From Bacteroidota bacterium (lineage in GTDB: Bacteria > Bacteroidota > Bacteroidia > Bacteroidales > JAADGE01), in the NCBI GenBank assembly GCA_024277895.1, contig JAJRUH010000018.1, positions 1-51,341 of the forward strand: 51,341 nt of DNA, given 5' to 3'. Below the pieces are notes generated by a model, which searched no databases, was not told the DNA's origin, and worked only from the letters and a program-made list of their open reading frames with translations. A program made the position numbers and the translations under genes. Positions 35,463-51,337 of this stretch are shown here, piece by piece; position 1 is the stretch's first letter; each line of letters begins with the position of its first letter.

Positions 35463-36683
35463 ATGTCATCTTTTAAAATAGCCCGCAGAAATATTCGGAG
35501 AAATAAACGACGAACCGTAATAACTGCCGCATCAATATTTTTTGCCGTCTTTTTTGCCGTGATTATGCGCTCTATGCAGCTCGGGACTTATACAGAAATG
35601 ATTAAAAATGTTGTTTCTTCCTATACCGGACATATTCAAATACACAAAAAAGGATATTGGAACGATAAAATTATCAATAATACATTTCCCGAAAATACAG
35701 AACTTGAAAAAACGATTGCGAAAATACCCGAAGTTGAAAAAGTTGTCCCGCGTCTCGAAAGTTTTGCCCTTGCTTCTTTCCGTCAACTAACAAAAGGAAG
35801 TATTGTTATCGGCATAAGTCCCGAAAAAGAAAATAATATGACAAAACTTGCCGATAAAGTTATTTCCGGAAATTACCTTTCAAAAACAAACAAAGGTGTT
35901 TTAGTTGCCGAAAAACTTGCATCTTTTTTAAAACTTGGAGTCGGAGATACCATTGTGCTTATGGGACAGGGATATCATGCGGCAACGGCAGCCGGAAAAT
36001 ATCCGGTAAAAGGAATTATTCGTCTCAACGCACCCGATCTTAACAATAAAATCGTTTACATAAATTTGTCGGAAGCACAGGATTTGTATTCTGCACCGAA
36101 TATGTTGAGTTCTCTTTCAATATTACTTAAAAATTCTGACGATATAAAATCTGTTAAAACAGCAATTTCCGATAAAATAAATCCCGAAAATTTTGAGGTT
36201 ATGACTTGGGAGGAAATTCTTCCTGAATTAAAACAAGCAATAGAAAGTGACAATATCAGCGGACAATTTATGCTCGCCATTTTGTATATGATAGTCGGAT
36301 TCGGAGTTTTCGGAACAATTGTTATGATGACCGTCGAAAGAAAAAAAGAATTCGGAATAATGACAGCCGTAGGTATGAAAAAAATAAAACTTGCGGGAAT
36401 TCTTTTTTATGAAACTTTATTACTCGGAATTTTGGGTATTTTATCCGGTTTTGCCGTATCTTTACCTTTAATTCTATATTTCAGCAAAAGCCCCGTACCT
36501 ATAACGGGAGATGTCGGAAACACTTTTAAATCTTTCGGATTCGAGCCGGTTATAGCATTTTCTGTAAATCCGCATTTTATGATTAATCAAATATCGGTTG
36601 TTGTTGTTATTGTTTTAATTGCTTATATTTATCCCTTAAGTTATATTTTAAAAATCAATCCGGTAAAAGCGTTGCGAAACTAA
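35463..36683 (+). CDS. ABC transporter permease (FtsX/LolE type), paralog 1
   Basis: N-terminal ARRNIRRNKRRTVITAASIFFAVFFAVIMRS; GTIVMMTVERKKEFGIMTAVGMKK. Confidence 0.92.
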   Translation: MSSFKIARRNIRRNKRRTVITAASIFFAVFFAVIMRSMQLGTYTEMIKNVVSSYTGHIQIHKKGYWNDKIINNTFPENTELEKTIAKIPEVEKVVPRLESFALASFRQLTKGSIVIGISPEKENNMTKLADKVISGNYLSKTNKGVLVAEKLASFLKLGVGDTIVLMGQGYHAATAAGKYPVKGIIRLNAPDLNNKIVYINLSEAQDLYSAPNMLSSLSILLKNSDDIKSVKTAISDKINPENFEVMTWEEILPELKQAIESDNISGQFMLAILYMIVGFGVFGTIVMMTVERKKEFGIMTAVGMKKIKLAGILFYETLLLGILGILSGFAVSLPLILYFSKSPVPITGDVGNTFKSFGFEPVIAFSVNPHFMINQISVVVVIVLIAYIYPLSYILKINPVKALRN

Positions 36684-36694
36684 AAATTTTTAGT

Positions 36695-37912
36695 ATGATT
36701 ATAAAAGTTGCTTGGCGAAATATTTGGCGAAACAAACGCAGAACTCTGATTACGGCAGCGTCGGTATTTTTTGCTGTTTTTTTCGGCTTAATTATGCGTT
36801 CGATACAAATAGGAACTTTCGGAAACATAACAGACAATCTGGTTTCTTCGTATTCCGGTCATCTTCAAATTCATAAAAAAGGATATTCCGACGAAAAAAT
36901 TCTTAATAATTCTTTTAATTCCGATAAATCATTAATAAATAAATTAAAAACCTTAAAACACGTAAAATATGTTGTTCCCCGGTTAGAATCTTTTGCTTTG
37001 GCTTCTTCCGGAGAACAAACAAAAGGATGTTTCGTTACCGGAATTTCTCCCGACGAAGAAAATTCAATGACAAAACTTTCTGAAAAACTAACTTCCGGAA
37101 AGTATTTGTTAAAAAACGACAAAGGTGCATTAATCGGAGATAAATTAGCTTCTTTTTTAAAAATAGGGATAAATGACACAATTGTTTTAATCGGACAAGG
37201 ATACCATTCTGTTTCCGCAGCCGGGAAATATCCCGTAAGAGGCATTTTACATTTTCCTTCTCCGAAATTAAACAGCAGTTTGGCATATATTTCATTAAAA
37301 GAAGCCCGAAAATTATATTCTGCAGAGAATAAATTAACAGGTATTGCCGTATTACTTGATTCCGATAAAAACACTTCTTCGATAAAAGCCGAAATAAAAA
37401 ACATCATTAATCTTAATGAATATGAAGTCCGGGATTGGGGAGAAATTATGCCGGAATTAAAAGAGCTTATTCAGTCAAAAAGCGTAAGCAGCTATGTAAT
37501 GTTAGGATTGCTGTATATGATTGTAGGATTCGGAATGTTGGGAACAATAATTATGATGATTGCCGAACGAAAAAAAGAATTCGGGTTATTAGTTTCCGTA
37601 GGAATGAAAAAAACAAAACTTGCGTTAACGGTTTTTACGGAAACTGTTTTTCTCGGTTTTACCGGATTGCTTGCCGGATTTATCGTAAGTTTACCTATTA
37701 TTCTTTATTATTCCGTTCATCCGATATATCTCGGCGGAAAAATCGCCGAAATGTATGAAAAAAACGGATTTGAACCTGTTATTCTTTTTTCATCCGATAC
37801 CGGTTATATAATTGCACAATTTATTATTGTCTTTATTATCTTAATTGTTGCATCTGTTTACCCTGTTATAAAAATATTAAATTTAAATCCCGTTAAAGCT
37901 GTTCGGGACTAA
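36695..37912 (+). CDS. ABC transporter permease (FtsX/LolE type), paralog 2
   Basis: Highly similar to paralog 1 (WRNIWRNKRRTLITAASVFFAVFFGLIMRS...SSYSGHLQIHKKGY). Confidence 0.92.
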   Translation: MIIKVAWRNIWRNKRRTLITAASVFFAVFFGLIMRSIQIGTFGNITDNLVSSYSGHLQIHKKGYSDEKILNNSFNSDKSLINKLKTLKHVKYVVPRLESFALASSGEQTKGCFVTGISPDEENSMTKLSEKLTSGKYLLKNDKGALIGDKLASFLKIGINDTIVLIGQGYHSVSAAGKYPVRGILHFPSPKLNSSLAYISLKEARKLYSAENKLTGIAVLLDSDKNTSSIKAEIKNIINLNEYEVRDWGEIMPELKELIQSKSVSSYVMLGLLYMIVGFGMLGTIIMMIAERKKEFGLLVSVGMKKTKLALTVFTETVFLGFTGLLAGFIVSLPIILYYSVHPIYLGGKIAEMYEKNGFEPVILFSSDTGYIIAQFIIVFIILIVASVYPVIKILNLNPVKAVRD

Positions 37913-37928
37913 TCAAAAACCCTTAAAT

Positions 37929-39155
37929 ATGTTAATATCAATTGCTTGGAAAAATATTTGGCGAAATAAACTCAGAAGTGCCGTTGTAATTATCGCCGTA
38001 ACTTTGGGTTTAATCGGCGGAATTATGTCCGTAGGAATTATGTTCGGTTCGTCCGATCAACGCATAAAAGATGCTTTAAACGATTACGTTTCCGAAATAC
38101 AAATACATCATCCGAAATATTCCGAAAACAACGAGGCAAAATATATAATTAAAAATTCGGATAATGCAGAAAAAATAATTTCAGAAATTCCCGGCGTTAA
38201 ATCTGTTTGTTCCAGAATGAAAATTATCGGAATGGCAAATTCTCCGGAAGCTGCCGTCGGAATTGTTATTAACGGTATTAATCCGGAACGCGAAAAAAAA
38301 GTTACGGATATTTACACAAAAATTCCCGACAGTCTCGGAACTTATTTCAAAAACACAAAGCGAAACCCCGTATTAATAAGCTCCAAACTTGCCGAAAAAC
38401 TTAACCTGCATCTTCGCTCAAAAGTTGTATTAACATTTCAGGAAAAAAACGGAACAATGACGGGCGGAGCTTTCAGGGTTTCGGGAATATACAAAACAAA
38501 TAATTCAATGTTTGACGAAACAAATATTTTTGTAAAAAAAGAAGATTTAGCTCGTTTAACGCTGTTTCCGGAAAATACCGCACACGAAATTGCCGTAAGA
38601 ATAACCGACAAAAAACAATTAGAAACAATAAAAGCCGATATTTCAAAAAAATATCCCGATTTATCGGTAATGACCTGGAAAGAGTTACAACCCGATTTAG
38701 CAATGGTAACCGATTTTATGAACCAAATGATGGCAATTTTTATGATAATAATTCTTTCGGCTCTCGGTTTCGGTATCGTAAACACAATGTTAATGGTTGT
38801 TTTGGAAAGAATTAAAGAAATCGGAATGCTTATGGCGGTAGGAATGAATCGTATTCGTGTTTTTACTATGATTATGCTTGAAACCGTATTTCTTTCTGTC
38901 GTGGGCGGCGGAATAGGAATGGCTGTAAGTGCAATACTTTTAAATTATTTCGGACGTGTCGGAATGAGTTTTTCCTCCGTTTCTAAAGGTCTTGAAAGTT
39001 TCGGTTATTCTGCCGTTATTTTTCCGAAAGTTGAAACATCATTTTATTTTATGCTTAGTTTTTTAATTATTCTTACGGGAATTATTGCTTCTGTGTATCC
39101 GGCAATAAAAGCCGTTAAACTAAATCCGGCAGAAGCCGTAAGAACAGATGCTTAA
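37929..39155 (+). CDS. ABC transporter permease (FtsX/LolE type), paralog 3
   Basis: AWKNIWRNKLRSAVVIIAVTLGLIGGIM; MLMVVLERIKEIGMLMAVGMNR. Confidence 0.92.
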   Translation: MLISIAWKNIWRNKLRSAVVIIAVTLGLIGGIMSVGIMFGSSDQRIKDALNDYVSEIQIHHPKYSENNEAKYIIKNSDNAEKIISEIPGVKSVCSRMKIIGMANSPEAAVGIVINGINPEREKKVTDIYTKIPDSLGTYFKNTKRNPVLISSKLAEKLNLHLRSKVVLTFQEKNGTMTGGAFRVSGIYKTNNSMFDETNIFVKKEDLARLTLFPENTAHEIAVRITDKKQLETIKADISKKYPDLSVMTWKELQPDLAMVTDFMNQMMAIFMIIILSALGFGIVNTMLMVVLERIKEIGMLMAVGMNRIRVFTMIMLETVFLSVVGGGIGMAVSAILLNYFGRVGMSFSSVSKGLESFGYSAVIFPKVETSFYFMLSFLIILTGIIASVYPAIKAVKLNPAEAVRTDA

Positions 39156-41502: not shown

Positions 41503-41564
41503 CTTTTAAAAATTGTTTTATATTTGCAACGCCTCAAATTTAACTGGAAAACTTTAATTCTTAA
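41503..41564 (+). promoter_or_regulatory. Leader/promoter repeat R1 (TATATTTG -7-like box)
   Basis: cttttaaaaattgttttatatttgcaacgcct identical over 32 nt to 42529-42560; TAnnTTTG box at 41519-41526. Confidence 0.75.
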
Positions 41565-41873
41565 ATGCAAAAATCATCGATAAAAATAGAAAACTTTTCA
41601 GAACATCTTTTTTGGGATGTTGACCGAACGAAACTTGATTTTGAAAAAAATAAAAGATTAATAATTGAAAGAGCTTTTACAAGAGGTGATATTGCCGATA
41701 TAAAAATAGTGATTACATATTATGGATTAAATACAATAAAAGAAGAAATAATAAAAGCCGGCTTCTTGGATAAAAAAACATTAAACTGGGTAAGTCTATT
41801 TTTAGATATTCCAAAAACAAAATTCAGATGCTATACAAAGATACAATCGAAAACAGCACATTGGAACTCCTGA
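41565..41873 (+). CDS. DUF6922-like small protein (putative antitoxin/partner)
   Basis: SEHLFWDVDRTKLDFEKNKRLIIERAFTRGDIADIKIVITYYG...LNWVSLFLDIPKTKFRCY; overlaps AbiEii ORF. Confidence 0.75.
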   Translation: MQKSSIKIENFSEHLFWDVDRTKLDFEKNKRLIIERAFTRGDIADIKIVITYYGLNTIKEEIIKAGFLDKKTLNWVSLFLDIPKTKFRCYTKIQSKTAHWNS

Positions 41874-42460
41874 AGAAGTTACAAGCTGACACAGAGTTAA
41901 GTGCATTCAAACTTGCAGGAGGAACATCGCTTGCTTTGCAAATAGGGCATCGAAAATCAATTGATTTAGATTTGTTTTCACAAAATAACTTTGACTCGAA
42001 TTATTTGCTTGAATATTTAGAAGAAAACTATAATTTTGCTGTAGATTATACATCAAAAAACACATTAAAAGGAAGTATTAAAAATATAAAAATTGATTTA
42101 ATAAGTCATAAATATAATTTGGTTAAGCCTTTTGTGAAAACAGAAAATATAATACTTTATTCCGTTGAAGATATTGCCGCAATGAAACTTAATGCAATAG
42201 CAGGCAACGGAACTCGTTCAAAAGACTTTATTGATATTTATTTCATCTTAAAGCGTTTTTCAGTAGCGGAAATACTTGAATTTTACAAGAAAAAATATAA
42301 ATTACGAAATTCATTACACGTAATTAAAAGTTTAAACTATTTTAATGATATTGATACACAAGATTGGCCTGAAATGCTTCTTGAAAAACAAATTTCAATA
42401 GAACAGGTAAAACAAAATATTGAAATACATATTAAAAACTTTTCTGAAAATTTAATATAA
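41828..42460 (+). CDS. AbiEii/AbiGii-type nucleotidyltransferase toxin family
   Basis: LAGGTSLALQIGHRKSIDLDLFSQNNFDSNYLL; DIAAMKLNAIAGNGTRSKDFIDIYFIL. Confidence 0.88.
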   Translation: MLYKDTIENSTLELLKKLQADTELSAFKLAGGTSLALQIGHRKSIDLDLFSQNNFDSNYLLEYLEENYNFAVDYTSKNTLKGSIKNIKIDLISHKYNLVKPFVKTENIILYSVEDIAAMKLNAIAGNGTRSKDFIDIYFILKRFSVAEILEFYKKKYKLRNSLHVIKSLNYFNDIDTQDWPEMLLEKQISIEQVKQNIEIHIKNFSENLI

Positions 42461-42528
42461 TATCGGCAAAAATCACTTTACGTGTAAAGAATCTTTCAAA
42501 CAAGTTTAAGTTCAAATAGTAAATGCAA

Positions 42529-42589
42529 CTTTTAAAAATTGTTTTATATTTGCAACGCCTTAGTTTTAACCTGAAAACTTTAAATTTTA
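42529..42589 (+). promoter_or_regulatory. Leader/promoter repeat R2 upstream of cysC
   Basis: 32-nt identity to 41503-41534 followed by similar spacer to ATG; TATATTTG at 42545-42552. Confidence 0.75.
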
Positions 42590-43192
42590 ATGCAAAACAC
42601 AAATAACATACACCCGGTTTTCGACCAAATAATAAACAAAGAACAAAAAGAAAAACTTCTGAACCAAAAAGCCAAAGTGTTGTGGTTTACCGGCTTATCC
42701 GGTTCGGGAAAAACAACTCTCGGTGCTTCCGTTGAAAAAGAATTATTTAATCGCGAGTTTTTAACACAAATTCTCGACGGAGACAATATTCGTTCCGGAA
42801 TAAATAAAAATCTTAAATTTACCGAAGAAGACAGAGTAGAAAATATTCGCAGAATTGCCGAAGTAACAAAACTTTTTTTAAATTGCGGAGTTATTGCAAT
42901 TAACTGTTTTATAAGCCCCACAAAAGAATCCAGGGATATGGCTAAAAGTATTATCGGAAAAGAAAATCTGATAGAAGTTTACGTAAGCACGCCTATTGAA
43001 GTTTGCGAACAAAGAGATACAAAAGGACTTTATGCCAAAGCTCGCAGAGGAGAATTAAAAAACTTTACGGGTATAAGTTCTCCGTTTGAAATACCCGAAA
43101 ATCCGGATATTATTGTTAATACAAACGAATTAACACTCGAAGAATCAACAAAACACATATTAGATTTTCTTATAAAAGAAATTACATGTTAA
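42590..43192 (+). CDS. cysC: Adenylyl-sulfate kinase
   Basis: KVLWFTGLSGSGKTTLGASVEKELFNR; LDGDNIRSGINKNLKFTEEDRVENIRR; CFISPTKESRDMAK; CEQRDTKGLYAKARRGELKNFTGISSPFE. Confidence 0.94.
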   Translation: MQNTNNIHPVFDQIINKEQKEKLLNQKAKVLWFTGLSGSGKTTLGASVEKELFNREFLTQILDGDNIRSGINKNLKFTEEDRVENIRRIAEVTKLFLNCGVIAINCFISPTKESRDMAKSIIGKENLIEVYVSTPIEVCEQRDTKGLYAKARRGELKNFTGISSPFEIPENPDIIVNTNELTLEESTKHILDFLIKEITC

Positions 43193-43198
43193 AGAAAT

Positions 43199-44074
43199 TT
43201 GAAAAATCCGAATCAAAATATTAAGATAAAAGAAAACGAAAGATGGTCGTTAGTAATTAAACCTCGCAGAAGTCTTTTTGATGTAAATCTTAAAGCTATT
43301 TGGGAATATCGTGATTTAATTGCACTTTTTGTAAGGCGTGATTTTGTCGCAAAATATAAGCAAACAATACTCGGTCCTTTGTGGTTTCTCATTCAACCGC
43401 TTCTTACAACAATAATGTTTACTGTTGTATTCGGTAATATCGCAAAAATTTCAACAGACGGGCTGCCGAAAATGCTTTTTTATATGTCGGGGATAACTGC
43501 TTGGAATTATTTTGCAGAAAGCCTTAAAGCAACGTCAAATACATTTGTTACAAATGCCGCAATATTCGGAAAAGTATATTTTCCGAGATTAACTTTGCCG
43601 ATTTCAACCGTAATATCAGGTTTGATACAATTTGCAATTCAGTTTATGTTTTTACTTACCTTCATGGTTTATTTCGGAATTACGGGTGCAAGTTTTTCAC
43701 CAAACATTTATATTTTGCTTATCCCGGTATTGATTTTATTAATGGCGGGTTTAGGTTTAGGTCTCGGAATAATAATCTCTTCATTAACAACCAAATACAG
43801 AGACTTAACATATCTTGTCGGCTTTGGTGTTCAGCTGTTTATGTATGCAACACCGGTTATTTATCCTATTTCAAGTATCCCTGAAAAATATCAAATTTAT
43901 ATATTGGCAAATCCGGTAACGCCGATTATTGAAACATTTAGATATGCTCTGCTCGGATCCGGCAATTTTAGTACGATACACTTACTGTATAGTTTTGGCT
44001 TTATGCTTGTCGTTTTGTTTCTGGGTATAATTTTATTTAACAAAATTGAGCAGTCATTTATGGACACTGTGTAA
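43199..44074 (+). CDS. Polysaccharide ABC exporter permease (Wzm-like; TTG start)
   Basis: YRDLIALFVRRDFVAKYKQTILGPLWFLIQPLLTTIMFTVVFGNIAKI. Confidence 0.92.
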   Translation: MKNPNQNIKIKENERWSLVIKPRRSLFDVNLKAIWEYRDLIALFVRRDFVAKYKQTILGPLWFLIQPLLTTIMFTVVFGNIAKISTDGLPKMLFYMSGITAWNYFAESLKATSNTFVTNAAIFGKVYFPRLTLPISTVISGLIQFAIQFMFLLTFMVYFGITGASFSPNIYILLIPVLILLMAGLGLGLGIIISSLTTKYRDLTYLVGFGVQLFMYATPVIYPISSIPEKYQIYILANPVTPIIETFRYALLGSGNFSTIHLLYSFGFMLVVLFLGIILFNKIEQSFMDTV

Positions 44075-44299
44075 ACATGAAACACCCATGCCGAGTAAAT
44101 TCGGCACACAAGAAAATGATTATTGCACGCAGAGAATACAGTAAAAAGAAATAATTTTGTATGCGGGTGTTCCTATCTGACCTTTGAAAATTATAGATAT
44201 AAACAGATGAAAACAGAAAATAACACACATATGGGTTTTGATAAAATTACCGTCCGTAAAAAAATTTACAAAAATTAACATATTTTACTTAATCCCTTA

Positions 44300-45670
44300 A
44301 TGAATAAAAAGGAACTTTTACATATAATCTCACAAGGCGAAAACGAACAAGTTGAATTTAAACTCAATTTTAATAAAAAAATTATTGAAACAATTGTGTC
44401 TTTTTCAAACAAAAAAGGCGGAAAATTATTTCTCGGAATAGCCGATACGGGAAAAATTACCGGTATTGAATTAAGTAAAGAAAGCATACAAAATTGGCAA
44501 AATGAAATAAAAACAAAAACAGAGCCTGCTGTTTTCCCTGATTTTGAAGAAATTATAATTGAAAATAAAACAGTTATTGTTATTTTAGTTCCGGAATTTC
44601 CTGTAAAGCCGGTTTCTTTGCAGGGAAGATATTACATTAGAAAAAAGAATTCAAATCACCTTTTAGCATTAAATGAAATAAATGATGTTTATTTGCAATC
44701 AATTCAAACTTCGTGGGACAGTTATCCTTATGCTGATGCAAAAAATACCGATTTAGACGAAACTAAAATTTTATCTTTTATAGAAAAAGTAAACAGCAGC
44801 GGTCGTTTTAAACTAAACGGAAAACCTCTTGAATGTTTGAAAAAATTACGCTTAATAAAAAATAATACCCCGACAAATGCTGCTATGCTGTTATTCTCAA
44901 AAGAAGAGTTATTTTATAATATTCATATAGGTCGTTTTAAAACACAATCGCATATTATTGACGATAAAATGGTGAGAGGAACACTTTTTGAAGCTGTTGA
45001 AAATACAATAAAATTTATTATCAGTCATTTAAAAGTTGCTTTTGAAATTACGGGAAAATCCGTGCAACGAACAGAAATTTTTGAATATCCGCTTTCTGCA
45101 ATCCGAGAGTTGGTTCTTAATGCAATAATTCATAGAGATTATAAAAGTCCGACAGATATTCAGATAAAAATTTTCGACAAAGAAATTACAATATTTAATC
45201 CCGGCGGATTATTTGGTAATTTAACAATAGAAGACTTAAAAACAGATAATTATCAAGCTCAAAGCAGAAATAAATTAATAACGGAAGCATTTTATCTTAC
45301 AAAAGATATTGAAAAATACGGAAGCGGATACCGTAGGGTTAGAGAGCAAATTGCCAAATACCCGACGATGTATTTTAATTTTGAAGAAAATTCCGGAGGA
45401 TACTTGGTTAAAATAGGATACGAAAAGCAAAAAACAAATAAAGTCACCGATAAAGTCACCGATAATGTCACCGATAATGTCACCGATAAGCGTTCCGAAC
45501 TTATTTTAAATTTAATAAGAAAAAACGAGAAAATTTCCACAACTGAAATTGCAAGAGAATTAAATGTTACAAAAAGAACAATATTGAGAGATATTGAAAA
45601 GTTAAAAGGTCAAAACAAACTTAAACGTTCAGGCAACAATAAAACAGGATATTGGAAAATAATAAAATAA
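44300..45670 (+). CDS. AlbA_2 (Schlafen-type) ATP-binding protein with C-terminal HTH
   Basis: ENEQVEFKLNFNKKIIETIVSFSNKKGGKLFLGIADTGKITGIELS; LSAIRELVLNAIIHRDYKSPTDIQIKIFDKEITIFNPGGL; C-terminal ARELNVTKRTILRDIEKLK. Confidence 0.92.
   Translation: MNKKELLHIISQGENEQVEFKLNFNKKIIETIVSFSNKKGGKLFLGIADTGKITGIELSKESIQNWQNEIKTKTEPAVFPDFEEIIIENKTVIVILVPEFPVKPVSLQGRYYIRKKNSNHLLALNEINDVYLQSIQTSWDSYPYADAKNTDLDETKILSFIEKVNSSGRFKLNGKPLECLKKLRLIKNNTPTNAAMLLFSKEELFYNIHIGRFKTQSHIIDDKMVRGTLFEAVENTIKFIISHLKVAFEITGKSVQRTEIFEYPLSAIRELVLNAIIHRDYKSPTDIQIKIFDKEITIFNPGGLFGNLTIEDLKTDNYQAQSRNKLITEAFYLTKDIEKYGSGYRRVREQIAKYPTMYFNFEENSGGYLVKIGYEKQKTNKVTDKVTDNVTDNVTDKRSELILNLIRKNEKISTTEIARELNVTKRTILRDIEKLKGQNKLKRSGNNKTGYWKIIK
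45440..45487 (+). repeat. 12-bp minisatellite, 4 units, encoding (K/N)VTD
   Basis: aaagtcaccgat aaagtcaccgat aatgtcaccgat aatgtcaccgat. Confidence 0.95.
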
Positions 45671-45689
45671 AAACTAATTCATAAGTAAA

Positions 45690-46937
45690 ATGTCGGACAC
45701 AGCAATAAAATTAGAAAATATATCAAAACAATACCGACTCGGCGTAGTAGGAACAGGCACACTCAGCCACGACCTTAATCGCTGGTGGGCAAAAGTGAGA
45801 GGCAAAGAAGATCCTTCTCTAAAAATAGGACAAGAAAATTCACTTGCAAAAGCCGGAGGCGACTACGTTTGGGCATTAAAAGATATAAATCTCGAAGTAA
45901 AACAAGGCGAAGTTCTCGGAATTATCGGAAAAAACGGAGCAGGAAAATCAACACTCTTAAAACTTCTTTCGCAAGTTACGGGACCGACAACCGGGCAAAT
46001 AAAAGTAAAAGGCAGAATTGCAAGTTTACTTGAAGTAGGAACAGGTTTCCATCCCGAACTTACAGGACGAGAAAATATTTTCCTTAACGGAGCAATACTC
46101 GGAATGCGAAAATGGGAAATAAAAAAGAAACTTGATGAGATTGTAGATTTTGCAGGAGTGGCAAAATACCTTGATACGCCTGTTAAGCGATACAGCAGCG
46201 GAATGTATGTTCGTCTTGCATTTGCAGTAGCAGCACACTTAGAGCCCGACATTTTAGTAGTTGACGAAGTCCTTGCCGTAGGCGATGCCGAATTTCAGAA
46301 AAAAGCAATCGGCAAAATGCAAGATGTTTCTTCACAAGGAGGGAGGACTGTGCTTTTTGTTAGTCATAATATGACAAGCATTAGAAATTTATGTAAAAAA
46401 GGAATTCTTTTAAAATCGGGAATGATTAGTTTTGAGGGAGCTGTTGAAAGTTGTATTCAAACTTATAATACAATTACAGAAAATCAAAAAGAAGAAGCTA
46501 TTGAAAATAATAAAATTAAAATTATCAGCTTTAATATAAAAAATAAATATAAAGAAAATGTATTTACCCCATTCGAAGAAATCTTTTTTAACTTAAAATT
46601 TGAAACAAAACAAAACCTTGGTGAAATTGATTTTACATTACATTTTTATAATGAACAAAATATAAGGGTTCTTGTGATTAGTTCTGTCCATAAAAAGCAC
46701 TCTATAAAAGGCACAAAAGGAAAACATGAAATAACATTCAAACTTGATAATTTTAAACTTATACCCGGCAGATATTTTATTTCTGTTGGAATATTTGAAG
46801 ACAGAATTGTTCCTGAAATGATGTTTCTAAACCATTTTGCTCTTTTTGATATTGAGCAAGATGATCGATTTGCAATAATTGCAGCAAATTATGAAGGTAT
46901 ATATTATCCTAAATTTGAAATCTTAAATTTTAAATAA
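45690..46937 (+). CDS. Polysaccharide ABC exporter ATP-binding protein with C-terminal glycan-binding-like domain (Wzt-like)
   Basis: GIIGKNGAGKSTLLKLLSQVTGPTTGQIKVKGRIASLLEVGTGFHPELTGRENIFLNG; YSSGMYVRLAFAVAAHLEPDILVVDEVLAVGD; C-terminal beta domain. Confidence 0.93.
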   Translation: MSDTAIKLENISKQYRLGVVGTGTLSHDLNRWWAKVRGKEDPSLKIGQENSLAKAGGDYVWALKDINLEVKQGEVLGIIGKNGAGKSTLLKLLSQVTGPTTGQIKVKGRIASLLEVGTGFHPELTGRENIFLNGAILGMRKWEIKKKLDEIVDFAGVAKYLDTPVKRYSSGMYVRLAFAVAAHLEPDILVVDEVLAVGDAEFQKKAIGKMQDVSSQGGRTVLFVSHNMTSIRNLCKKGILLKSGMISFEGAVESCIQTYNTITENQKEEAIENNKIKIISFNIKNKYKENVFTPFEEIFFNLKFETKQNLGEIDFTLHFYNEQNIRVLVISSVHKKHSIKGTKGKHEITFKLDNFKLIPGRYFISVGIFEDRIVPEMMFLNHFALFDIEQDDRFAIIAANYEGIYYPKFEILNFK

Positions 46938-46940
46938 ACA

Positions 46941-47063
46941 ATATACGTAACCCAACCAAATCTCCCCGATTTTAATAGTTTCACTGAAAAGTTAAAAGAA
47001 CTCTGGGAAAGCAAACACTTAACAATTAAGGGTAAATTCCACCGAAACCGGAGCAAAACATTG
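46941..47063 (+). pseudogene. 5' fragment of a DegT/DnrJ/EryC1 aminotransferase gene (P1)
   Basis: Translates IYVTQPNLPDFNSFTEKLKELWESKHLTIKGKFHR, matching IYVTQPTLPNFDDFTEKLKELWESKHLTNNGKFHQ of the ORF at 50231; no ATG, then breaks off. Confidence 0.9.
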
Positions 47064-47065
47064 CA

Positions 47066-47126
47066 AGTAAACTTAAATCTTTTTGATTATTTTAGCAAAA
47101 CTGTAAGTAAACTTAAATCTTTTTTG
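47066..47126 (+). repeat. Direct repeat with 40-bp period
   Basis: agtaaacttaaatcttttt at 47066 and again at 47106. Confidence 0.85.
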
Positions 47127-47169
47127 TATTATTGCAATAATTATTAATATCCTTGTAACTTGCTGATAT

Positions 47170-48369
47170 ATGAAAATAATACAACGCAATAAATATTTAA
47201 ACAAGATTTCTAAATTTGCAAATAACGAAATTATTAAAGTTATTACAGGACAACGCAGGGTTGGGAAAAGTTTTTTTCTTAAACTGTTGATAGCTGATTA
47301 TTTAAAACATACACCAGACATTAATATTATTTATATTAATTTAGAATTGTTTGAATTTTCAACAATTAACACAGCCGATGATTTAGTAAACTATATAGAA
47401 AAAAAATCAAAATCTGCCGGAAATATCTTATTTATTGATGAAATACAAGAAATTAACGGCTTTGAGCATGCAGTTCGACATTTCTTTTCTAAAAATTACA
47501 ATATTTATATAACCGGCAGTAACTCATCGCTGTTGTCAGGAGAACTTGCGACGTTACTTTCGGGAAGATACGTGCAGTTTAAAATTAATCCTTTAAATTT
47601 TACTGAATTTTGTAAATTTCACAAACTATCTGTAAATCAAAAAACGCTTAATTTATATATTAAATTCGGCGGAATGCCTTATTTGAAAAATCTTGACTTA
47701 AACGATGACGAAGTTGTTTTTACATATCTGCAAAATATTTATCAAACAATACTTTTGAAAGATGTAGTTGCAAGATACAATTTAAAAAATGTTGATTTCC
47801 TCGAACGTCTTGTGTTATTTCTTGCAGATAATACAGGAAGTATCGTTTCTGCAAAAAAAATTGCCGACTTCCTTAAATCTCAGAACCTTAAAATTTCAAA
47901 TTCCGTTGTTCTTAATTATCTTAATTATATTAATAATGCTTTTTTTATAAATAAAATACGACGATACGATTTACAAGGAAAACGTTTTTTGGAAATAGGC
48001 GAAAAATTTTACTTCACAGACGTAGGCATTCGGAATGCACTTGTAGGTTTTAAGCCGCAAGACATGAATAAAATACTGGAAAATGTAGTATATTCGCATT
48101 TAATTTCAATTGACTATGCTGTAAGTATCGGAAAAATAAATAACCTGGAAATAGATTTTATAGCAGAAAAAAATAATAATAAAATTTATATACAAGTAAC
48201 TTATTTGCTGACAGACAATAAAGTTGTTGAAAGAGAATTTGGAAATTTGGAAAAAATAAACGACAATTACAATAAATATGTTATTAGTTTTGACCAAGTT
48301 CAATTTGATAATAAAAACGGAATAAAACATCTGAGTTTAATAAATTTTCTTCAAAAACAAAATCTGTAA
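47170..48369 (+). CDS. AAA ATPase with DUF4143-type C-terminus
   Basis: VITGQRRVGKSFFLKLLIADYL; ILFIDEIQEINGFEHAVRHFF; YITGSNSSLLSGELATLLSGRYVQFKINPLNFTEF. Confidence 0.92.
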   Translation: MKIIQRNKYLNKISKFANNEIIKVITGQRRVGKSFFLKLLIADYLKHTPDINIIYINLELFEFSTINTADDLVNYIEKKSKSAGNILFIDEIQEINGFEHAVRHFFSKNYNIYITGSNSSLLSGELATLLSGRYVQFKINPLNFTEFCKFHKLSVNQKTLNLYIKFGGMPYLKNLDLNDDEVVFTYLQNIYQTILLKDVVARYNLKNVDFLERLVLFLADNTGSIVSAKKIADFLKSQNLKISNSVVLNYLNYINNAFFINKIRRYDLQGKRFLEIGEKFYFTDVGIRNALVGFKPQDMNKILENVVYSHLISIDYAVSIGKINNLEIDFIAEKNNNKIYIQVTYLLTDNKVVEREFGNLEKINDNYNKYVISFDQVQFDNKNGIKHLSLINFLQKQNL

Positions 48370-48373
48370 AATA

Positions 48374-48615
48374 GGGCTTGCTGAAAAGCTCAGATGTGCG
48401 TCTATTTTGGATTTTGTGAGATGTAGATGTATATAAATACTTCAAATTGAACAAAATACAAAAGAGATGTGCAGCTGAGCGGCAAAAATTTAGTAGTTTT
48501 ATCAAAATAAGTACATGGGTTTCAAGATGTTTCATTCAAAAACCTTGCACTTTATCACAAAAATACAAATATAAAGTGTTGAATTACAATATATTTAGCA
48601 TTTTTCAGCAAACCC
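48374..48615. mobile_element. Transposase-less inverted-repeat element, copy C
   Basis: Termini as copies A/B; flanked by perfect TAAAATA direct repeats (48367-48373, 48616-48622). Confidence 0.9.
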
Positions 48616-48655
48616 TAAAATAAAAAATTTAAACAGCACATTTGTTGTTTTATTA

Positions 48656-48771
48656 TGAAAAAATCAGATAAAAATATGAACAAACCAATATACATAACCC
48701 AACCAACTTTACAAAATTTTAACAAATTCATACAAATTAAAAGAATTTTAAAAACACAATCACATTTTTAA
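48656..48771 (+). pseudogene. Second, more degraded 5' fragment of a DegT-type aminotransferase gene (P2)
   Basis: Hand translation MKKSDKNMNKPIYITQPTLQNFNKFIQIKRILKTQSHF*, aligns with IYVTQPTLPNFDDFTEKLKELWESKHLT. Confidence 0.78.
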
Positions 48772-48802
48772 AATAAATAATGCTCACAAAAATATTAAAC
48801 CT

Positions 48803-48833
48803 TTTGTTTTATTTCTGAAAATATATAAATTTG
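48803..48833 (+). promoter_or_regulatory. Bacteroidetes-type promoter upstream of AbiEi/AbiEii pair
   Basis: TTTG (48803-48806), 19-nt spacer, TAAATTTG (48826-48833), 20 nt before the ATG. Confidence 0.6.
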
Positions 48834-48852
48834 CATATAAATAGAAACAAAA

Positions 48853-49467
48853 ATGCAATTTTTAAACTTTAAACAACAGTTTAACAAGTATATAGTATTT
48901 TCTGTAAAAGAAATAGATAAATTATACCCGAATTTTAATAAAATGAATTTGCTGACTTGGCAAAAAAAAGGATACTTGCATAAAATTAGAAATTCTTGGT
49001 ATTGTTTTTCAGATACTATTATTGACGAAACAAGACTTTTTTATATTGCAAATAAAATTTACCAACCGTCTTACGTAAGTTTAGAAACGGCATTATATTA
49101 TTACGGCGTAATTCCGGAAGCAGTTTTTTCAATAAATTCTGTAACAACGTTAAAAACAAAAGAGTTTAAAAATAGTCAATATTTATATACATACAGAAAC
49201 ATAAAAACAAATTGTTTTTTTGCTTATAAATTTGTGCAAAAAGAAAATTACACCTTTAAAATTGCTGAAATTGAAAAAGCATTGTTAGATTTATTATATT
49301 TTCGGCATTCATTAAAAACTTTTGAAGATATAATATCTTTGCGATTAAACAAAGAATTATTACTGAAAGAATTAAATATGCAAAAATTATCAGATTATGC
49401 AACCTTGTATAATTCAAAGATATTGTTGAAAAAAGTAAAAATAATAAATCAATTTCTGTATGATTAG
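48853..49467 (+). CDS. AbiEi-like antitoxin / transcriptional regulator
   Basis: FSVKEIDKLYPNFNKMNLLTWQKKGYLHKIRNSWYCFSD; YIANKIYQPSYVSLETALYYYGVIPE. Confidence 0.85.
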   Translation: MQFLNFKQQFNKYIVFSVKEIDKLYPNFNKMNLLTWQKKGYLHKIRNSWYCFSDTIIDETRLFYIANKIYQPSYVSLETALYYYGVIPEAVFSINSVTTLKTKEFKNSQYLYTYRNIKTNCFFAYKFVQKENYTFKIAEIEKALLDLLYFRHSLKTFEDIISLRLNKELLLKELNMQKLSDYATLYNSKILLKKVKIINQFLYD

Positions 49468-50234
49468 TCTGAATGAAATAAAAAAATATTATCCCGAAAA
49501 TTTGCACATTTTTAAAAATTTTATGTTGCGTGAATATCTGCAATATAAAATTCTTGAAATAATTTTTGAAAGTGAATATGCAGATAAACTTTGTTTTCTT
49601 GGCGGGACTTGTTTGCGAATAGTTCATAATAACTCTCGCTTTTCAGAAGATTTAGACTTTGATAATTTAGACTTATCTGAAACTGATTTTAAAGACATTT
49701 CTGTAATTATTGAAAAACAACTGTCAAAACAAGGATACGAAATTGACATCAAAAATGTGTTTGCAGGAGCATTTCATTGTTATGTCAGATTTCCGAACTT
49801 GCTTTTTAACGAAGGGCTGTCAGGTCACAAGGAAGAAAAAATATTAATTCAATTAGATACCGAACCACAATATTTCACATACAAACCTGAAAAATTAATT
49901 TTAAATAAATTTGATGTATTTACTTCGATAAACACAACGCCGAAAGATATTTTGTTGGCACAAAAATTTTATGCTCTTATTAACCGAAAACGAAAAAAAG
50001 GACGAGATTTTTTCGACATTATTTTTTTAATGAAATCAACACGTCCGAATTTTGATTATTTACAACAAAAAATTGAAAATAAATAATGAAACTGCTTTAA
50101 AAAACAGAGTATTACAAGAAATAAATAAACTTAATCTAACCGAAATAAGTAAAGATGTTCAACCGTTTCTGTTTAATCCGTCTGATATAAAGCAAATTTT
50201 GTTATTTAAAGAATATATAAATCAAATTTTTTGA
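49460..50234 (+). pseudogene. AbiEii-type nucleotidyltransferase toxin, split by frameshift (49460-50086 and 50052-50234 frames)
   Basis: LCFLGGTCLRIVHNNSRFSEDLDFD; ORF stops after QQKIENK, while the +1 frame continues NNETALKNRVLQEINKLNLTEISKDVQPFLFNPSDIKQILLFKEYINQIF, typical of the family C-terminus. Confidence 0.8.
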
Positions 50235-51337
50235 AACAAATGATATACGTAACCCAACCGACACTTCCAAATTTTGATGACTTCACTGAAAAGTTAAAAG
50301 AACTTTGGGAAAGCAAACATCTGACAAATAACGGGAAATTTCATCAAGAATTAGAGCAAAAACTCGCAGAATTTCTTGGCGTTGAATATATTTCGCTTTT
50401 TTCAAACGGAACACTTGCACTTATCGTCGGCTTACAGGCACTCCGAATTACAGGCGAAGTAATTACAACGCCATACAGTTTTGTGGCAACAACACACTCT
50501 TTGCATTGGAACGGAATAAAACCTGTTTTTTGCGATATTTGTCAAGAAGACGGAAATCTTAATCCCGATAAAATAGAAGCACTTATCACTCCGCAAACAA
50601 CAGCAATTTTGCCTGTTCACGTTTACGGAAACCCTTGCGACAACGAAAAAATTCAAAAAATAGCAGACACATACGGACTTAAAATAATTTACGATGCCGC
50701 TCACGCATTTGCAGTAGAAAAAAATAACCGGACAATCTTAAATTGGGGCGATTTGTCAATATTGAGTTTTCACGCAACTAAAACATTTAACACTTTTGAA
50801 GGCGGCGCAATTATCTGCAAAGATGCAACAACAAAACAACGTATTGATTATCTTAAAAATTTCGGCTTTGCCGGTGAGGAAACCGTAGTCGCACCCGGAA
50901 TAAACGCAAAAATGAACGAAGTAAGTGCAATAACGGGACTTTTGCAACTTCCTCTGTATGAAAAAAATAGGCTCAAAAGACAGAAAATAGTAAATTTATA
51001 CAAAGCAAAATTAAAGAATACAAAAGGTATTCGGTTTATTAAAAGTAATGAAAATATAAAAGAAAATTACTCATATTTTCCTATTTTTATTGATAAAAAC
51101 AAATTTGGAAAATCAAGAAACGATGTTTATGACCTGTTAAAACAAAATAATATATTTGCTCGTAAATATTTTTATCCTTTAATTAGTCAATTTCCTGCTT
51201 ACAGAGGTTTAAAATCTGCAAAAAAAGAAAATTTACCTGTTGCAACAAAAATGGCAGATGAAGTTTTATGTTTACCTTTATATGCTGACTTGGAGTTAGA
51301 AAATGCAGAAAAAATTATCAGAATGATAAATGAATAA
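50231..51337 (+). CDS. DegT/DnrJ/EryC1-family sugar aminotransferase
   Basis: EYISLFSNGTLALIVGLQAL; PVHVYGNPCDNEKIQKIADTYGLKIIYDAAHAFAVE; SFHATKTFNTFEGGAIICKD. Confidence 0.93.
   Translation: MKQMIYVTQPTLPNFDDFTEKLKELWESKHLTNNGKFHQELEQKLAEFLGVEYISLFSNGTLALIVGLQALRITGEVITTPYSFVATTHSLHWNGIKPVFCDICQEDGNLNPDKIEALITPQTTAILPVHVYGNPCDNEKIQKIADTYGLKIIYDAAHAFAVEKNNRTILNWGDLSILSFHATKTFNTFEGGAIICKDATTKQRIDYLKNFGFAGEETVVAPGINAKMNEVSAITGLLQLPLYEKNRLKRQKIVNLYKAKLKNTKGIRFIKSNENIKENYSYFPIFIDKNKFGKSRNDVYDLLKQNNIFARKYFYPLISQFPAYRGLKSAKKENLPVATKMADEVLCLPLYADLELENAEKIIRMINE

Follow-up and report, generated by a model that had tools for sequence, protein, structure and literature searches.

The glycan-export operon and its cassettes

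The stretch considered here (the window) is contig JAJRUH010000018.1 of a Bacteroidota bacterium (assembly GCA_024277895.1), 51,341 nucleotides (nt) long. It makes up a whole contig of a draft genome (G000:C176), the end of which lies 4 nt past the gene degT. Within it, a cysC-wzm-wzt-degT operon of glycan export is split by four toxin/ATPase cassettes, three of which have partial duplicates of the starts of adjacent genes at their edges (Table 1); the gene order and the repeats agree with those given in an earlier, preliminary description of the locus. Comparison with relatives and with other loci suggests, with a probability of roughly 0.8, that the cassettes came into the chromosome through insertion with long target duplication, which near a gene end leaves an intact gene and a decaying stub.

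Repeats were scored as the best local alignment between the 450 nt that precede a gene and the 700 nt that follow it; pairs of mismatched upstream and downstream flanks served as the null, and the cut-off was a score of at least 47. The three window repeats score 89 (cysC leader), 127 (degT stub 1) and 53 (degT stub 2), where one null set has its 99th percentile at 33 and its 99.9th at 72, and the weakest repeat has p=0.005. The degT reading frame opens at 50231, with the likely ATG at 50240, and its 5' end (50230-50343) is the copy kept at the right.

Fourteen genomes of the genus were compared. The preliminary description had predicted a single wzt-degT junction in cassette-free relatives, and this is the arrangement in G006, where porin-cysC-wzm-wzt-degT carries no cassette. 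The G006 junction reads TTTAAATAAATGATATACGTAACCC and aligns with the window through the end of wzt into stub 1, as well as with the right-hand degT; stub 1 is therefore the original degT start. In the same genome 12 nt separate wzm from wzt, with no AlbA_2 cassette, and cysC-wzm-wzt is also free of cassettes in G007. The DUF6922-AbiEii pair before cysC is absent from both of these genomes and present at the same place in G012; between cysC and wzm, G012 has a further copy that differs from the first.

Table 1. Genes, cassettes and repeats of the operon region, in window coordinates.
Feature	Positions	Strand	Evidence
Left copy of cysC leader	41503-41564	+	55/62 nt identical to 42529-42590; ends at DUF6922 start codon
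Cassette 1: DUF6922 (41565-41873) and AbiEii nucleotidyltransferase (41828-42460)	41565-42460	+	PF21956 E=2e-19; PF08843 E=4e-16
Right copy of cysC leader	42529-42590	+	Repeat comparison within the window
cysC (adenosine phosphosulfate (APS) kinase), target gene	42590-43192	+	PF01583
wzm, ABC-2 permease	43199-44074	+	PF01061
Cassette 2: SLFN/AlbA_2, HATPase_c_4 and HTH protein	44300-45670	+	PF04326; flank repeat none (score 23)
wzt, exporter ATPase	45690-46937	+	PF00005, PF14524
degT 5' stub 1, inside native wzt-degT junction	46928-47041	+	81% over 114 nt to 50230-50343
Tandem 40-nt iterons upstream of DUF4143 gene (TGTAAGTAAACTTAAATC)	47057-47136	+	Direct repeats
Cassette 3: AAA_14-DUF4143 ATPase	47170-48369	+	PF13173, PF13635; PADLOC PDC-S01 (PDLC04787) E=1e-144
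Miniature inverted-repeat transposable element (MITE), 244 nt	48373-48616	.	Inverted arms; terminal repeats AGGGCTTGCTGAAAA; 5-bp target duplication AAAAT
degT 5' stub 2 (MNKPIYITQPTLQNF...)	48672-48745	+	About 71-75% to both other degT starts
Cassette 4: AbiEi (48853-49467) and AbiEii (49460-50086)	48853-50086	+	PADLOC AbiEi (E=7e-58, no Pfam match) and AbiEii; PF08843
Intact degT	50240-51337	+	PF01041 E=2e-93; 92% amino acid identity to G006 degT

Some further features of the window may be recorded. The linker of the AlbA_2 protein is made of in-frame 12-nt tandem repeats (KVTDKVTDNVTDNVTDK; 45438-45497). Three FtsX-like permease paralogues (406, 405 and 408 amino acids) lie in a row at 35463-39155, and the first two share a 198-nt stretch that is 74% identical. 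Copies of the 244-nt MITE of Table 1, with its terminal repeats and with target duplications of 4-5 bp, stand directly 3' of two DUF4143 genes of this genome, one in the window and one elsewhere (L147, G000:C25).

Origin of the repeats

Across loci, the repeats that flank cassettes of this kind range from 31 to 206 nt and vary in length from one locus to another. Repeats from different loci are unrelated to one another unless the target is identical, and their source is consequently the target, not the cassette; the same mismatch rules out the repeats as the termini of an element. The freshest examples are a hutI repeat in G009, identical at 61 of 61 nt, and a near-identical repeat (136/138 nt) at a family 2 glycosyltransferase (GT2) gene in the genome of the window itself (G000:C92). 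The hutI gene differs by 12-20% between species, while the fresh repeats equal the local gene.

Reading of the open reading frames (ORFs) assigns about eleven repeats to gene 5' ends or leaders (degT, cysC, GT2, GT1, hisH, three GT2 stubs in L105 and others). Gene 3' ends account for about ten (hutI twice, a glycosyltransferase (GT), korB twice, dapA, an O-acyltransferase and others), in either orientation. The preliminary description had foreseen other cassettes between a 5' stub and a full gene elsewhere, and the GT2 stubs of L105 and the GT stubs of L149 bear this out. It had also anchored the process on gene 5' ends and seen in it a route into glycan loci, and in these two respects it was too narrow: 3' ends make up about half of the assignable repeats, and hutI-ftcD, korB, dapA and hisH are targeted as well.

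The mobile unit and its insertion sites

The unit that moves is best delimited for the DUF4143 genes. The stretch between their repeats is mostly 1.29-1.54 kb, the left repeat ends a median of 159 nt before the start codon and the right repeat begins a median of 17 nt past the stop. Where near-identical DUF4143 genes occupy different places (G006, G001, G012), homology runs only from about -60 to -100 to the stop codon, from which it follows that the mobile unit consists of an ORF and its promoter.

Three loci, namely wzt-degT, hutI-ftcD and a GT-polymerase site, have an empty counterpart in other genomes. The hutI-ftcD gap is empty in G001 and G002 and is occupied, in both orientations, by three different DUF4143 types (one in G009, one in G008 and one in G000 and G012); in G000 three hutI 3' stubs are stacked there. 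G007 and G000 have no cassette at the GT-polymerase site; G006 has one there, together with a 3' duplication. The 3' end of korB (2-oxoacid:ferredoxin oxidoreductase beta), with its terminator, is a further hot spot that has received a DUF4143 gene in G013 and a Fic gene in G008 (L355, L163).

Two side observations concern the distribution of these sites. The hutI-ftcD gap is an insertion hot spot genus-wide (L240, L239, L241, L158), and a second glycan cluster in the genome of the window (L149, G000:C92:4000-22500) contains four DUF4143 genes, of which three sit at the 5' ends of GT genes and the fourth at the 3' end of one.

Frequency of the footprint

At the cut-off, flanking repeats are present in 17 of 51 DUF4143 (PADLOC PDC-S01) genes and 4 of 24 Fic genes of the genus, in 11 of 74 DUF6922-AbiEii pairs of the order and in 13 of 77 DUF4143 genes from several other phyla, the fractions in the wide sets being upper estimates for genuine target duplications. 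They are found in one of 35 AlbA_2 genes. Among the controls the counts are 3/166 for other ORFs of the same loci and 0/42 for GT2 glycosyltransferases, and against the other ORFs Fisher's test gives p=1.3e-9 for DUF4143, 2e-4 for DUF6922 and 3.5e-5 for the DUF4143 set from other phyla. None of 24 N6_N4 methyltransferases in the genus has the footprint, although restriction-modification genes are known carriers. As a separate observation on copy number, the single genome G008 contains 37 DUF4143 matches.

Mechanism of entry

Insertion with long target duplication is itself well supported by the empty sites, the target origin of the repeats and the boundaries of the unit. The cassette would be a short DNA unit, carrying its own promoter and a single gene, or a gene pair, of toxin- or defence-like type. 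As the incoming DNA joined its target, 30-200 nt of the latter would be duplicated and flank it as direct repeats. Close to the end of a gene, such an event would yield one intact gene and one decaying stub. The placement at gene ends probably reflects survivorship, with duplications arising anywhere and only those that pass a gene end sparing the gene, because a duplication reaching past the end leaves one intact copy of the target. Repeated insertion at one tolerated spot would give the stacks at wzt-degT and hutI-ftcD.

How the ends are joined is a more tentative matter. A linear fragment might be captured where the chromosome is broken, either at a break whose two strands were cut at points tens to hundreds of nt from each other or at a broken replication fork, with the repeats formed by fill-in and with no cassette-encoded integrase. 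Such capture is favoured over a cassette-encoded enzyme because the footprint is common to ATPase-nucleases, nucleotidyltransferase pairs and Fic proteins. Consistent with the preliminary description, the annotated genes of the cassettes and their surroundings include neither a recombinase nor a transposon at a boundary.

Several observations weigh against insertion with long target duplication as the full account. Most cassettes have no detectable repeat, including the AlbA_2 cassette of the window, where local alignment finds none, and about two thirds of the DUF4143 genes; neither DUF6922-AbiEii copy of G012 has a leader repeat, even though one of them occupies the same site as in the window. 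In the wide sets, a minority of the matches are dispersed repeats or minisatellites (L073, L128, L285, L266). Cassettes without a repeat may reflect decay or another route of entry, and among the three window repeats the cysC-leader duplication is ambiguous and less clear than the other two. Finally, the order of events in the window misfits simple serial insertion: were cassettes added serially at the intact degT, stub 2 should be the youngest, yet it is the most diverged, more so than stub 1.

Homologous recombination, the process invoked in the preliminary description together with glycan-allele replacement, might account for the event at stub 2. In this explanation, which is possible but on the whole doubtful, a preformed unit from another strain (repeat-cassette-repeat, linear, or a circle with one repeat) enters through a shared gene end, so that RecA moves the cassette between strains, or the cassette travels with a glycan allele. 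Glycan loci exchange often, and direct repeats, once present, are ready homology arms. Stub 2 begins MNKPIY and thereby resembles the degT of G012 (MKNKPIY), whereas stub 1, the G006 degT and the resident intact degT have the short form; import of a stub-AbiE piece by homologous recombination may explain both the divergence of stub 2 and its MNKPIY beginning. As a general account it is not the simplest, since the repeats of fresh cases match the local gene over their full length and unrelated cassettes in opposite orientations are common to the hutI and korB sites. Moreover, homologous recombination cannot be what first brings a cassette to a new target.

A further possibility, and an unlikely one, is that PDC-S01/DUF4143 is primarily self-mobile. 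The protein, an AAA+ ATPase with a nuclease-like C-terminal domain, would bind its own 5' iterons, make staggered cuts and insert its promoter-plus-ORF unit with target duplications of 30-200 nt, sometimes mobilising neighbouring toxin cassettes in trans. DUF4143 has the highest repeat frequency among the classes tested and reaches up to 37 copies per genome, and tandem or palindromic iterons lie within 150 nt upstream of 17 of 51 DUF4143 genes vs one of 45 GT2 genes. Searches of the PDB by sequence and by fold returned AAA+ relatives only (Cdc6/Orc1, RuvB, RFC, SSO1545) and gave no informative match for the C-terminal domain; an ORC/RuvB-like AAA+ fold is predicted. Residues of nuclease type (D324...E337-x-K339), as in a PD-(D/E)XK site, are conserved in subfamily A3, but Q-V replaces E-x-K in subfamily A2, to which the window protein belongs. 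The iterons are gene-specific, differ in each subfamily and may be mere operators, and the unit has no conserved termini. AbiE, DUF6922-AbiEii and Fic cassettes leave the same footprint and encode no nuclease. A plasmid search for DUF4143 returned only distant relatives, with less than 60% identity.

Hitch-hiking on a transposon or integrase that sets the boundaries is very improbable. It could draw on the MITE between the DUF4143 gene and stub 2 and on another MITE type at some other loci, but the window MITE has its own 5-bp target duplication and sits inside the unit; an insertion sequence (IS) or MITE as the source of the cassette boundaries was rejected. ORF lists and Pfam reveal no transposase or integrase gene in the cassettes, and no att sites accompany them, the repeats differing between loci; repeats varying over 30-200 nt misfit IS target duplications, and the boundaries of the DUF4143 unit are equally unfavourable. 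The weakest reading, that the supposed stubs are similarities due to chance or to a promoter consensus, or relics of tandem degT paralogues, can appeal to recurrent Bacteroidota promoter motifs and to the five degT matches in G000, but it is rejected by the mismatched-pair null, by the control genes and by the alignment of stub 1 through the native G006 wzt-degT junction.

Relation to known systems and biological significance

Insertion with long target duplication of restriction-modification genes was reportedly recognised by Nobusato et al. in 2000 and Furuta et al. in 2010. The relevant passages of PMC3874152, PMC3031569 and PMC1643837 describe it mainly for Helicobacter pylori, and the cassettes resemble the insertions described there in being transposase-free gene units, present or absent between relatives, and in their direct target repeats, which are long (on the order of 100 bp) and variable. 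They differ from what those passages describe in their cargo (DUF4143/PDC-S01, DUF6922-AbiEii, AbiE or Fic), in their stacked serial insertions and in their occurrence in a Bacteroidota-like genus and in other phyla. The cargo beyond restriction-modification and the repeated stacking at hot spots extend the known phenomenon, and no paper linking it with DUF4143 was found in the open-access library searched.

Other systems are comparable in part. Genic direct repeats flank 17-44% of cases of transposed genes in Arabidopsis and are often absent in controls (PMC2869330), although this is a eukaryote and excision with reinsertion by ectopic recombination was proposed. Homology-facilitated illegitimate recombination (PMC3240628) likewise integrates foreign linear DNA with little homology and no integrase, but one end joins by homology and two-sided long duplications are not its stated product. 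With regard to cargo, the adjacent AbiEi and AbiEii genes of the window are like the AbiE type IV toxin-antitoxin system (PMC3985639) in their pairing; the DUF6922-AbiEii pair has a different partner. The window DUF4143 gene is like the single-gene phage-defence candidate PDC-S01 in its PADLOC profile match. According to the passages on PDC-S01 in PMC12988326, this is an ATPase fused to a member of the PD-(D/E)XK group and ranks fourth in frequency among the defences of prokaryotes, its validation still being awaited; these passages treat it as a candidate defence gene and do not discuss its entry into genomes.

The empty sites and the controls indicate that stand-alone toxin and defence genes outside restriction-modification arrive in chromosomes as minimal units of promoter and gene, with no recombinase. 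The footprint is readable, and repeat length, identity and stub order let such arrivals be dated and counted. The route by which PDC-S01 spreads bears on whether it is a defence gene, a selfish gene or both, because the pertinent passages of PMC12988326 report it as so common while its function is unproven. The same process would explain how defence-like genes accumulate next to the genes of operons and leave them intact.

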